From Halococcus sediminicola (GTDB taxonomy: Archaea > Halobacteriota > Halobacteria > Halobacteriales > Halococcaceae), in contig NZ_BBMP01000022.1 in assembly GCF_000755245.1 (NCBI RefSeq), forward strand, positions 620,001 to 684,000: DNA of 64,000 bases, in the 5' to 3' direction. This document shows positions 27,242 to 31,172 of the stretch, piece after piece. Below the pieces are notes generated by a model. It did not search any database. It was not told the DNA's origin and worked only from the letters and a program-made list of their open reading frames with translations. Position 1 is the stretch's first letter. The number at the start of each line of letters is the position of its first letter. A program made the position numbers and the translations under genes.

Positions 27242-28378
27242 ATGGTCGATACGACCCCGGTCGTCGCGGCGGCGTACCGCACCCCCCAAGGCAAGGAGGA
27301 CGGCGTCTTCTCGGAGGTCAGGAGCGAGGACCTCTCGATCCCCCTCATCAACGAGATCCTCGCCGACACAGGGTTGGCGGGCGAGGACGTCGACGACCTG
27401 ATGTGGGGCTGTGCCCAGCAGCGCGGCGAGCAGGGCAATAACGTCGCGCGGGTCATCTCGCTGCTGTCGGATCTGGGCGAATCCGTCCCGGCGACCACCA
27501 TCAACCGCTGGTGTGCCTCCTCGGCTCAATCGATCATCTCGGCCTCGGACGCGATCCGGGCCGGCCAGCGCGACGCCATCATCGCCGGCGGCGTCGAGAA
27601 CATGAGCCGGACGAAGATGGGCCAGAACTCACAGAACGTCCATCCCCGGCTGAACGAGGCCCACAACGTCGCCGCGCTCCAGATGGGGATGACCGCCGAG
27701 GAGGTCGCCGAGCGCTACGACGTTTCGCGCGAACAGCAGGACGAGTACGCCGCTCGCAGCCAGCAGCGCGCCGTCGAGGCCACCGAAGACGGCCGTTTCG
27801 ACGACGAAATCGTACCCATCGACAACGGTGAGGACCAAATCGACACCGACGAGGGACTCAGACCGGGCACCACGGCCGAAAAGCTCGCCGACCTCCCGAC
27901 GGTATTCAAATCCGACGGAACCGTCACACCGGGCAACGCCTCGCAGGTCTCCGATGGGGCCTCCGCGACGCTCATCACGAGCCGCGACTTCGCCGAGGAT
28001 CACGGCCTCGACGTGCTCGCCGAAGTCGGCTCGAACAACGTCGCGGGCGTCGAACCCGAAGTAATGGGAATCGGTCCCGTGCCCGCCACCGAGGGACTGC
28101 TCGAACGCACGGGGAAGAATATCGACGACTACGGTCTCGTGGAACTCAACGAGGCGTTCGCCTCGCAGACGCTCTACTGCCAGCGCGAACTCGGTATCGA
28201 CGACGAGATATTCAACGTCAACGGCGGCGCGATCGCCATCGGTCACCCGCTCGGCGCGAGCGGCGCGCGCCTGCCGGTGACGCTGATTCACGAGATGGAA
28301 AAGCGCGGCGTCGAGCGCGGGCTCGCCACCGAATGCGTCGGCTTCGGACAGGGTGCAGCCATCGAGTTTTCGCGCTGA
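27242..28378 (+). CDS. Acetyl-CoA C-acyltransferase (thiolase)
   Basis: A 378-residue thiolase that condenses or cleaves acyl-CoA units. The acyl-accepting Cys91 (NRWCASS), His335 (GHPLGASG) and Cys365 (TECVGFGQG) form the active site. It could act in fatty acid degradation or supply acetoacetyl-CoA for PHA or isoprenoids. The last 28 bases of coding sequence plus stop are repeated with one mismatch at 28503-28530, after a dispersed repeat. Confidence 0.93.
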   Translation: MVDTTPVVAAAYRTPQGKEDGVFSEVRSEDLSIPLINEILADTGLAGEDVDDLMWGCAQQRGEQGNNVARVISLLSDLGESVPATTINRWCASSAQSIISASDAIRAGQRDAIIAGGVENMSRTKMGQNSQNVHPRLNEAHNVAALQMGMTAEEVAERYDVSREQQDEYAARSQQRAVEATEDGRFDDEIVPIDNGEDQIDTDEGLRPGTTAEKLADLPTVFKSDGTVTPGNASQVSDGASATLITSRDFAEDHGLDVLAEVGSNNVAGVEPEVMGIGPVPATEGLLERTGKNIDDYGLVELNEAFASQTLYCQRELGIDDEIFNVNGGAIAIGHPLGASGARLPVTLIHEMEKRGVERGLATECVGFGQGAAIEFSR

Positions 28379-28379
28379 G
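28352..28379 (+). repeat. Thiolase 3' end, first copy of a 28-base direct repeat
   Basis: These 28 bases, the thiolase C-terminal codons and stop, recur at 28503-28530 with a single G/A change. The copies are 151 bases apart and bracket repeat copy A. Confidence 0.85.
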
Positions 28380-28411
28380 TGACGGCCAGCCACCGCGAGC
28401 GACATTGGGTC

Positions 28412-28499
28412 CGAGCGGGCCGAGGAACCTCCGGAGGGGGTGACGACGGCTTTTGATCCAGCTTTTGCGAGGGAGCGCACAGCGACCGTAGCAAAAGGT
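28412..28499 (+). repeat. Dispersed intergenic repeat, copy A
   Basis: Starts CGAGCGGGCCGAGGAACC and ends GTAGCAAAAGGT. It contains the inverted pair CTTTTGC (28462-28468)/GCAAAAG (28491-28497). Copy B at 29149-29254 has the same order of blocks with small insertions. No coding capacity. Confidence 0.75.
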
Positions 28500-28502
28500 G
28501 GT

Positions 28503-28530
28503 GGTGCAGCCATCGAATTTTCGCGCTGAG
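28503..28530 (+). repeat. Thiolase 3' end, second copy
   Basis: A 27/28 match to 28352-28379, placed directly after the right end of dispersed repeat copy A. It has no upstream thiolase sequence and is not a gene. Confidence 0.85.
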
Positions 28531-28553: not shown

Positions 28554-28979
28554 TTATTCGTGTCCGTCCGGCAGCACCACGACCGGCCGCTCGCTGTCGG
28601 TGACGAGCGCGCTCGTCAGGTCACCTGAGAGGAGTTTGAGCCAGCGGCCGCCGGCGCGTGGCGTGAACGCGATGGCGCTGGCGTCCACCTCGTCGGCCAC
28701 GGCGAAGACGACCTCGGGGATCGATTCGCCGTATTCGAGACGCGTCTCGACGGTGACGTCGCCCCCACCGAACGCCTCGCGGGCGGCTGCGAACGTCTCT
28801 GCGGCGTGTTCGGGGTGTGTACCGTCGGACGGCGCAGTACCTTCGATGACGTGGACGACGATCGCGCGCCCGCCCGCTCGGCGGAGGTGGGCCGCCGCGC
28901 CGGCGCAGGTGGTGCGTGCGTCCTCGGCGCTCGCCACCGGCAACACCACGACCTCGAAGAGGTCTCTGGCCTCGCTCAC
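28554..28979 (-). CDS. Universal stress protein (UspA family)
   Basis: A 141-residue UspA-fold protein. The last strand-loop has GGRWLKLLSGDLTSALVTDSERPVVVLP, a partial version of the ATP-binding G-2x-G-9x-G-S/T motif in which the second Gly lies in LLSGD, so nucleotide binding is uncertain. Start is GTG at 28979. It sits between the two dispersed repeat copies, whose 5'-3' orientation is the same, so the gene may have been carried or boxed in by them. Confidence 0.85.
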   Translation of the reverse strand: MSEARDLFEVVVLPVASAEDARTTCAGAAAHLRRAGGRAIVVHVIEGTAPSDGTHPEHAAETFAAAREAFGGGDVTVETRLEYGESIPEVVFAVADEVDASAIAFTPRAGGRWLKLLSGDLTSALVTDSERPVVVLPDGHE

Positions 28980-29257
28980 GAATCATCACCGCCGCCGGAA
29001 TCTTGCGATCGTCTCACAGGCGAGCGACGGTGCGATGGCTCAAAAATGTAGGGTCAGCCGCGGGGACGGCTGCGTACCCGCGCGCCGCCCGATGCGGCTT
29101 GCGGTTGCGGAGGGGACACCTATCCCATCGCGAGCGAACGGAGTGAGCGAGCGGGCCGCGGAACCCCCGGGAGTGAGGGGGTGACGAAGGCTTTTGATCG
29201 ACATTTTGCGAGCGAAGGAGCGACCGCAGGGAGCGACTGAGCGTAGCAAAAGGTCGG
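28980..29257. other. Intergenic region with repeat copy B
   Basis: These 278 bases hold no convincing gene. The second half (29149-29254) is the dispersed repeat; the first half is GC-rich, with short runs (GCGGCTTGCGGTTGCGGAGG, 29092-29111) that resemble text near 47905 (CTTGCGGCTGCGGAGG). Confidence 0.6.
29149..29254 (+). repeat. Dispersed intergenic repeat, copy B
   Basis: Aligns with copy A block by block: CGAGCGGGCCG, GGAACC, GGGGGTGACGA, GGCTTTTGATC, TTTTGCGAG and GTAGCAAAAGG. It ends four bases from the stop codon of the antiporter gene on the other strand. The arms TTTTGC (29204-29209)/GCAAAA (29246-29251) are kept. Confidence 0.75.
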
Positions 29258-31135
29258 TTAGTCGGCAGGGTGGAACCGTTCGAGAGCGTCTTGGACCGAT
29301 TCGTTGAGACCGACGAGCGTGATGCGGTCACCCTGTTCGAGTTCGAAATCCCCATCTGGAACCTTGTTCTCGCCATCGCGGCTGACGAGTGCGATGAGAC
29401 AGCCTTCGGGGATGGCGCTCGCGAGTTCGGCGATGGTCTTGCCGGCGACGTCGGCAGCGGTGACCTCGAACTCCTGGACGTCGCCCGAGCGGCCGAGTTC
29501 GGTCATCCAGTTCCAGAGTGCGGGCCGCTCGATGCGGTTGTCGATGGCCCACGAGGTGGCGATGGGCGAGGAGATGGTCTCGACGTCGAGTTCCTCGAAG
29601 GCGTCCTCGTTTTCGGGCTGGTTGACCCGTGCGATGACCTGCTCGGTGTCGAAGGTGGTGGCCGCTAGTTGGGCCACGAGCAGATTCACGTCGTCGTCGC
29701 CGGTGGTCGCCACGACCGTCGAGGCTTTCTCGGCTCCCGCCGACTGGAGGACGTCGCGGTCGGTCCCGTCGCCGATGTGAACCGAGAATCCCTCCCTTCG
29801 GGCGGTCTCGACGTTCTCTTCGTCGTGTTCGACGATGACGACGTTCTCGCCGCGGGCATCGAGGCGCGTGGCGAGGTCGCGTCCGACTTTGCCGCCGCCG
29901 ACGATGATGGCACGCATGGGAATCACGTCGAGATACTCCGCTATGTATCTGGCTAACCCGCCCTCGACTAGAACTGTGGCGAAGATGACGAGGAAGACGG
30001 TGCCGACGAGCGTCTCGGCGGCCGCACCCATCCCCTCGGCCTGGAGGCGCACGGCAAAGAGCGTCGCCACGGAGGCGGGGATGATGCCCCGCGGGCCGAT
30101 GGCACTCATGAACACTCGCTCCTCGCGGGTGAACCGCCCGCCCGACGTCGAGAGGAAGACGACCAGCGGCCGGAGCACGACCATCACAGTAATGACGACC
30201 GCCAACCCGCCGAGTCCGAACGGGAGGTCCGAGAAGTTGAGCAGTGCGGCGAGCGCGATGAACACGAACGAAAGCACGATGAGCGTGATGTCGCCTTTGA
30301 AGTCGGTGATGTCCTCTTCGTAGGGAATGTCGAGGTTGCCGACGATGAGACCGGCGGTGGCGACGGCGGCGATGCCCGCCTCGGAGGCCCAGACGTTCGC
30401 CAGCCCGTAGGCCACCAGCGCACCGGCGAGCACGAGCAGGCGGGCGTTCCGGGGTGCGTTGCCCGGCGAGAGGTCGACGTAGCGGATGAGATACCAGAGC
30501 GCGATGGCGACCGCCGTGCCGACGACGATGCCGACGCCGAGTTTGATGGCGAAGACGACGAGGATGGCGGTGATTCCCGCCGAGGCCTCGAAGACGACCT
30601 CGAAGACGACGACCGCGAGGATCGCCGCCGTCACGTCGTTGACGATACCCTCGGTTTCGAGCGTGGTCGCCACGCGGTCGCGCACCGGCACCACCTCCAG
30701 GATCGGCGCGATGACCGTTGGTCCTGTGGCCACCAGTAGCGCGCCGACGAGAAAGGAGACGTCCCACGGGGCCGTGAGCGCGTAGTGGACGACGACTGCG
30801 GTGCCGACCAGTGAGATGGCCGCGCCGACGGTGGCGAGCCGTATCGTCGCCGACGAGGTCTGCCTGAGGTCCTCGATGCGGAGGTGGAATGCCCCCTCGA
30901 AGACGATGATGGCGACCGCAAGCCCGACGATGGCCGGCAGCGCGCCGCCGAATGTGTCGGCGCTGATGACCCGCGAGGGGAGTACCAGCCCCGACACCGG
31001 ACCGAGCACGAGACCCGTCGTCAGCAGGAAGATGATACTCGGCACGCGAAAGCGATCGCCGAGGACCTGCGAGGCGATCCCCAGGGCGATGATACCCGCG
31101 ACGAGCGCTATCAGCCCCGCTCCGCCAGATGCCAC
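29258..31135 (-). CDS. NhaP-type Na+(K+)/H+ antiporter with RCK domains
   Basis: A 625-residue monovalent cation:proton antiporter. About 12 membrane helices fill residues 1-395, with the CPA1 core GIVNDVTAAIL. Then come an RCK-N Rossmann domain (RAIIVGGGKVGRDLA, VIVEHDEENV) and a C-terminal RCK-C domain, so transport is probably gated by NAD(H) or another nucleotide. GTG at 31135 is chosen because TTATATAA at 31173-31180 lies too close to the earlier GTG at 31171 but fits this start with a leader of about 14 bases. Confidence 0.9.
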   Translation of the reverse strand: MASGGAGLIALVAGIIALGIASQVLGDRFRVPSIIFLLTTGLVLGPVSGLVLPSRVISADTFGGALPAIVGLAVAIIVFEGAFHLRIEDLRQTSSATIRLATVGAAISLVGTAVVVHYALTAPWDVSFLVGALLVATGPTVIAPILEVVPVRDRVATTLETEGIVNDVTAAILAVVVFEVVFEASAGITAILVVFAIKLGVGIVVGTAVAIALWYLIRYVDLSPGNAPRNARLLVLAGALVAYGLANVWASEAGIAAVATAGLIVGNLDIPYEEDITDFKGDITLIVLSFVFIALAALLNFSDLPFGLGGLAVVITVMVVLRPLVVFLSTSGGRFTREERVFMSAIGPRGIIPASVATLFAVRLQAEGMGAAAETLVGTVFLVIFATVLVEGGLARYIAEYLDVIPMRAIIVGGGKVGRDLATRLDARGENVVIVEHDEENVETARREGFSVHIGDGTDRDVLQSAGAEKASTVVATTGDDDVNLLVAQLAATTFDTEQVIARVNQPENEDAFEELDVETISSPIATSWAIDNRIERPALWNWMTELGRSGDVQEFEVTAADVAGKTIAELASAIPEGCLIALVSRDGENKVPDGDFELEQGDRITLVGLNESVQDALERFHPAD

Positions 31136-31172
31136 TCCCGACCCTCCATATGCGAACTGATACGCAACCACG

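Follow-up and report, generated by a model that had tools for sequence, protein, structure and literature searches.

Integrative elements that use the 3′ ends of genes, such as islands in tRNA genes, leave the restored gene end duplicated on both sides of the insert. In the fungal mitochondrial gene hybrids, described for atp6, atp9, cox2 and nad3 of Glomus and for atp6 of Allomyces, a mobile open reading frame brings a foreign C-terminal end that displaces the native one (PMC3630166, in the part of that account available to us). Two haloarchaeal systems are also relevant. The PATEs of Haloquadratum, considered alongside its IS200/IS605 elements, are transposase-free and have near-terminal palindromes related to IS605-type transposon ends, and the accessible part of their description reports them as lacking target duplications (PMC3119063). 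Termination sites in Haloferax are characterized by T stretches, sometimes with a hairpin (PMC7237163, from the portion available).

Here, we analyzed a 64-kb stretch of the Halococcus sediminicola genome (the window) in which the end of a thiolase gene is duplicated around a dispersed repeat. We refer to the functional gene end as E1, the repeat as R and the second copy of the gene end as E2, so that the complete arrangement reads E-R-E. The features of the locus are as follows.

27242–28378, plus strand: acetyl-CoA acyltransferase (thiolase) gene with the duplicated 3′ end, an open reading frame matching Pfam Thiolase_N (3.2e-74) and Thiolase_C (3e-42)
28352–28379, plus strand: E1, the functional thiolase end, with stop codon TGA at 28376–28378; 27/28 identical to 28503–28530
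28380–28502, plus strand: R (copy A), the intergenic repeat with a left extension; conserved core at 28451–28501, fitting TTTTGRTCCAGVTTTTGCRAGN{10,40}CAAAAGGTSG
28458–28501, plus strand: R hairpin, outer stem CCA/TGG (28458–28460 with 28499–28501); fold −22.4 kcal/mol, z −2.74
Within 28458–28501, plus strand: inner stem of the R hairpin, CTTTTGC/GCAAAAG (28462–28468 with 28491–28497), with variable interior
28503–28530, plus strand: E2, repeating the thiolase end; the next bases are CGGGGC, as at the uninterrupted H. thailandensis locus
28554–28979, minus strand: universal stress protein gene oriented towards the repeat (Pfam Usp, 4e-8); same neighbor in G001, G004 and G009
29125–29254, plus strand: second R copy (copy B), without duplication, adjoining the 3′ end of the following gene; outer stem CGA/TCG, not CCA/TGG
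29258–31171, minus strand: Na/H exchanger with TrkA domains, 3′ end abutting copy B (Pfam Na_H_Exchanger 7.1e-37, TrkA_N 5.2e-32)

The thiolase gene ends in GGTGCAGCCATCGAGTTTTCGCGCTGAG, and the preliminary description of this DNA was right that this end recurs with one mismatch and that copy A is bracketed by the resulting direct repeat. Nowhere else in the window does a 28-mer find a 27/28 match at a distance of 30–600 nt, and the next best match to the thiolase end there is 18/28. Between the two ends lies an insert of 123 nt that holds R; it contains no endonuclease open reading frame and is too short for one. The second repeat copy, previously placed at 29149–29254, is real but extends slightly further, and it is 73% identical to copy A. 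In total, the window genome carries nine good copies of R (E ≤ 5e-6), copy A included, and only the copy at the thiolase gene is bracketed by a duplicated gene end.

Five stretches were folded, of which those from L184 and L126 were poorly chosen and set aside. After its T-run, R has an outer stem of three pairs and a TTTTGC/GCAAAA stem, separated by a small internal loop, and the interior of the hairpin varies. In the window, the T-run (TTTT at 28451) precedes the hairpin rather than following it. The outer stem occurs as CCA/TGG, GCA/TGC, CGA/TCG or GGA/TCC and is paired at 97 of the 102 sites, from a total of 134, at which the right end of R could be located; both window copies fit this pairing. 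These compensatory changes argue for selection on the structure of R, either in RNA or in single-stranded DNA. R is a short haloarchaeal hairpin element, non-coding and located immediately 3′ of genes, and by analogy with the Haloferax terminators it is plausible that it is kept through a contribution to ending transcription. A search of Rfam with six loci returned no family, with only a tRNA passing its gathering score, and the exact R core had no matches in viral contigs. Five of the nine copies in the window genome adjoin the 3′ ends of tRNA genes (Met, Pro, Val, Leu and Tyr), with the CCACCTTTTGC end facing the tRNA. Such tRNA-adjacent copies (L003, L005, L006, L008 and L009 in Halococcus sediminicola; L110, L112, L115, L117 and L124 in relatives) have a constant orientation, lie partly at the same tRNAs in several species and show no duplicated tRNA end. 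At five other loci (L172, L189, L201, L202 and L224), a second dispersed repeat (GGTTCGGAACGAACGGAGTGAG...GAACCGCGG with GCGAGCGGGGA...CCCGCGAGC, and variants) lies inside R, in its loop or spacer.

Comparison with ten relatives places the window structure in a wider context. The thiolase gene and its convergent universal stress protein neighbor occur in this order in H. morrhuae (G001), G004 and H. thailandensis (G009). In G001 and G004, the thiolase end occurs twice with a shorter R between the copies, whereas G009 has a lone thiolase end with the native flank directly after it, supplying the kind of empty site that the preliminary description had proposed looking for. Of these four genomes, the window genome (G000), G001 and G004 share the thiolase E-R-E, and G009 alone lacks it. 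In thiolase sequence, G009 is nearest to G004 (41 differences in 1080 nt, compared with 133 from G000), and G000 stands furthest from the other three (133–147 differences). Because G009 is nested within a group that otherwise has E-R-E, the arrangement is not a recent event peculiar to the window genome; it is an older member of its kind, common to G001 and G004. The simplest history for this locus would be ancestral presence followed by precise loss in G009, and exchange between species may be another.

The arrangement also occurs at a second gene. The Elp3 gene of G009, recognized by its radical SAM and acetyltransferase Pfam domains, carries a 65-nt duplicate around an R at its end. In G000, G001 and G004, Elp3 has one uninterrupted end, with the same flank as that found after E2 in G009, and R is absent there; six other genomes showed no Elp3 E-R-E within the stretch inspected. 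E1 of G009 encodes SKQL followed by TGA, whereas E2 and the three relatives have SKRL followed by TAA. Relative to G004, the G009 gene has 3 differences in the 60 nt preceding the last 36 nt but 8 within the last 36, an interval in which G001 and G004 differ at only 2 positions. The end peptides, the stop codons and this concentration of divergence suggest that the final codons of E1 were replaced and that E2 runs into the native flank. In the left part of E2, all differences from E1 are synonymous, and the native sequence after E2 bears no sign of another R. No donor of the G009 E1 end was found. The outer stem of this R copy, CAA/TCG, is unpaired. Separately, the Elp3 coding region of G002 (L145, G002:C54) contains an insert of the dispersed-repeat type (GAGGCGCGAAGCGCCTCGG...), apparently in frame, at which the protein match ends.

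The E-R-E order is recurrent: a hairpin repeat follows certain housekeeping genes, and a second copy of the gene end follows the repeat. Of 117 genomes of the order, 10 matched a strict R pattern; in the family of genome G106, 61 of 111 matched the R core when two mismatches were allowed. Neither the pattern nor the core matched any genome when reversed. Among 52 thiolase loci in named genomes, ends duplicated around R were found in H. morrhuae, Natronococcus, Natrialba, Halomarina, Natronolimnohabitans, Haloterrigena and a Natrialbaceae MAG. For the G106 family, we assembled 105 loci with 134 R sites, omitting one place at a contig edge (G122:C3:32-52). A flanking duplication (score ≥18) was present at 81 of these loci and at 101 of the sites, compared with 2 of 535 control positions elsewhere in the same loci; a first null was unsuitable, as many loci share a gene and 16% scored ≥20. 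R adjoins at least 11 different gene ends, named from Pfam matches; the isoleucyl-tRNA synthetase (IleRS) is presumably such, from its anticodon-binding and class I synthetase match.

Thiolase: 54 R loci, 43 duplicated
M29 peptidase: 10 R loci, 5 duplicated
Radical SAM protein: 9 R loci, 8 duplicated
IleRS: 8 R loci, 8 duplicated
Glyoxalase: 6 R loci, 4 duplicated
Metallo-beta-lactamase: 5 R loci, 5 duplicated
TGQRSF gene: 3 R loci, 3 duplicated
NifU-like, GatB, PheT and DARQLFA gene: 1 R locus each, all duplicated
No assigned target gene: 6 R loci, 1 duplicated

Further gene ends duplicated in the same manner, which the preliminary description had suggested seeking, are thus found both in Elp3 of G009 and at these 81 loci. 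That description had also counted two things against its own reading: the same arrangement at every copy in relatives, which would mark an old fixed structure, and a lack of terminal duplications at other copies. The relatives are not uniform, but the eight other R copies in the window genome have no duplication. The thiolase junction between GGTGGTCGCG and CAGGG is alike between families, and many of the loci may accordingly descend from few events. Tandem arrays of the E-R-E-R-E type occur in G172, G175, G081 and G196, the longest, in G172, having five R cores spaced 124 nt apart. Arrays of four to five cores lie at L199 (G172:C24:2100-5800) and L257 (G175:C11:45200-49500), with spacings of 119–124 nt. 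At two thiolase ends (L084 and L256), R has its right end doubled (GACAAAAGGTGGGTGGGACAAAAGGTGG) and the second gene end is missing, which may reflect a deletion. At L195 (G095:C1:3654200-3657300), a 125-nt duplication around R spans the 5′ half of an apparent tRNA gene and the sequence upstream of it, and the duplicated stretch is thus not always a gene 3′ end.

How the two ends of a locus differ from one another bears directly on their origin. We compared E1 and E2 at 61 single-unit loci, from the 81 duplicated, in which the gene end could be recognized by a peptide motif. Identity was 93% before the stop codon (2157/2310), fell to 52% over the first 5 nt past it (155/299) and was 40–46% further on. 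The 153 coding differences fell at codon positions 1, 2 and 3 in the numbers 32, 28 and 93, a third-position share of 61%; the loci are related to one another, which makes p-values for this pattern too small. An in-register stop is kept in 48 of the 61 E2 copies and lost in 13. For thiolase, E1 and E2 of the same locus match at a mean of 30.79 of 33 positions (19 loci), and ends from different species of a genus at 29.99 of 33. Plain copying followed by neutral decay of E2 is disfavored by the break in similarity at the stop and by a third-position share above the value of about 45% that, by our own rough estimate, such decay would give. Together with divergence similar to that between species, they make E1 and E2 resemble two alleles of the gene rather than a sequence and its copy. 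Some copying or conversion between the ends is nonetheless likely, since identity within a locus is slightly above that between species.

The distribution of states at the thiolase gene points to rapid turnover. Among 47 loci from three genera, 19 were filled (E-R-E), 10 had R only and 18 were without R. On the thiolase gene tree, from which G226 and second thiolase paralogues were left out, these states (assigned by hand) are scattered: sister species often differ, and the filled label requires 15 changes, compared with a mean of 15.1 for shuffled labels. At least one locus labelled empty, that of G224, holds a truncated R, and R was probably older and more widespread than the labels would indicate.

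We favor a model in which recombination exchanges the gene end jointly with R and pushes the native end aside, with later loss, amplification and conversion; we assign it a probability of about 0.5. In this model, a unit consisting of the gene end and R from a related allele would recombine into the native gene end. The incoming end would become the functional E1 with R next to it, and the native end would be displaced downstream, together with its own flank, as E2. Later recombination between E1 and E2 could then remove R and one end precisely, amplify the unit into E-R-E-R-E arrays or convert one copy to the other. We infer from these comparisons that E1 would be the foreign end, originating in another lineage, and that the joining probably occurs by homologous recombination. 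The Elp3 pattern, the break at the stop codon, the allele-like divergence, the excess of duplications at R over control positions, the random-like scatter on the thiolase tree and the tandem arrays all support this model. The insertion or recombination with duplication at a gene end that had been proposed for the window is likewise supported by the empty site, by Elp3 and by the recurrence at 81 loci, whereas a simple target-site duplication is a poor fit. Several observations weaken the exchange model. The third-position share is below the expectation for purely coding alleles, and 13 of the 61 E2 copies lack an in-register stop; the duplication at L195 lies on the 5′ side of a tRNA gene; and Elp3 lacks an identified donor.

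A bolder version of the exchange model assigns agency to R itself. The hairpin of about 55 nt, although non-coding, would be the mobile agent, using the conserved gene end as a homology arm to enter the same gene of another species, replacing its C-terminal codons and leaving the native end behind as a scar. We offer this possibility only tentatively.

Tandem duplication is the likeliest of the alternatives. R would already have been a downstream hairpin, replication slippage would have doubled the gene end together with R, and the distal R would have decayed because the first one suffices. Consistent with this idea, 24 of the 105 R loci, at the same set of genes, have R after the gene end without a clear second end (no duplication of score 18), multi-unit arrays exist, and several loci have a truncated second R after E2. 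Moreover, similarity between the copies reaches the T-run or enters R at 17 of the 81 duplicated loci, which tandem duplication explains better than exchange does. However, doubling of the whole unit does not predict that similarity should fall at the stop codon or that differences should favor third positions. Nor does it fit Elp3 of G009, where E2 continues directly as native sequence and R is missing from the relatives. A minority of loci agree with tandem duplication, and we regard it as rather unlikely to be the general explanation.

It is improbable that R is the remnant or miniature of an integrative element, with the gene 3′ end as attachment site, E1 and E2 as attL and attR, and a tyrosine recombinase acting in trans. 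Such an element would share several features with R: the gene is restored by a duplicated 3′ end that carries synonymous changes, uninterrupted sites exist, and R adjoins tRNA 3′ ends in Halococcus. Yet the ends of thiolase, Elp3, IleRS, GatB, PheT and other genes have no common core by eye, which makes a single site-specific recombinase unfit, and we rejected a single integrase site given that the ends carrying R are unrelated and of at least 11 kinds. In the loci inspected, which cover L194–L229 in part, R alone lies between the end copies, with no integrase gene. Among the thiolase loci L054–L086, no distant second end was found, the best other match beyond the local duplicates being at most 19/24.

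A non-autonomous transposon of the MITE or PATE type, inserting past stop codons with a long target-site duplication, is a similarly poor candidate. R is dispersed in many copies, as a hairpin whose interior varies, and in H. morrhuae the duplicate spans the thiolase end to the native T-run, both in keeping with transposition. In single-unit loci, however, the duplicate varies in length from about 23 to 125 nt, and we rejected a uniform target-site duplication, or the constant short one of a MITE, on this ground. No transposase ends were identified, most copies diverge after the stop, and PATEs, in the part of the source available, are without target duplications (PMC3119063). Finally, an old and immobile 3′ structure, with both ends functional and held by selection and concerted evolution, would account for the shared thiolase junction across families and the covariation in R, but it is very improbable given the random-like distribution of filled, R-only and other states, the E2 copies that lack an in-register stop and the R-only loci, which suggest that E2 can be lost without consequence.

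Joint exchange of gene end and hairpin would mean that conserved genes such as IleRS, GatB or thiolase carry recombined 3′ ends, and R would represent a protein-free and harmless way of entering important genes. If the hairpin is itself the mobile agent, it would be a protein-free element that exchanges gene ends across haloarchaeal families. Even if tandem duplication is correct, R would still be structured and widespread, and it would be gained and lost very quickly at particular gene ends. The arrangement is easily missed in annotation, and it is directly testable in haloarchaea that are genetically tractable.

We found no description of gene-end duplication around a haloarchaeal hairpin in the open-access literature searched, which was covered in part. 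Like haloarchaeal terminators, R has a T stretch after the gene and a hairpin, but its T-run comes before the hairpin, and the available part of the terminator study mentions no duplicated gene end (PMC7237163). R also resembles the PATEs as a transposase-free haloarchaeal element with palindromes, differing from them, as far as the accessible description of those elements extends, in its flanking duplication at 81 of 105 loci (PMC3119063). With integrative elements at gene 3′ ends, E-R-E shares its layout and the restoration of the gene by a duplicated end, and it departs from them in that the ends it occupies are many and unrelated, share no visible core and have no integrase gene between their copies. 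The closest parallel is with the fungal gene hybrids, in which, as we propose for E-R-E, an element arrives with a foreign 3′ end and the native end is displaced downstream; the differences between ends are mostly synonymous there too (PMC3630166, for the part available). This layout of foreign and displaced native ends fits Elp3 of G009 and is suggested elsewhere by the E1/E2 statistics. In contrast, the same portion of that account has the hybrids carrying an endonuclease open reading frame, whereas R is a non-coding hairpin of roughly 50–150 nt with no open reading frame, and it places them in fungal mitochondria, whereas R is found at archaeal chromosomal housekeeping genes and sometimes in tandem arrays (PMC3630166).
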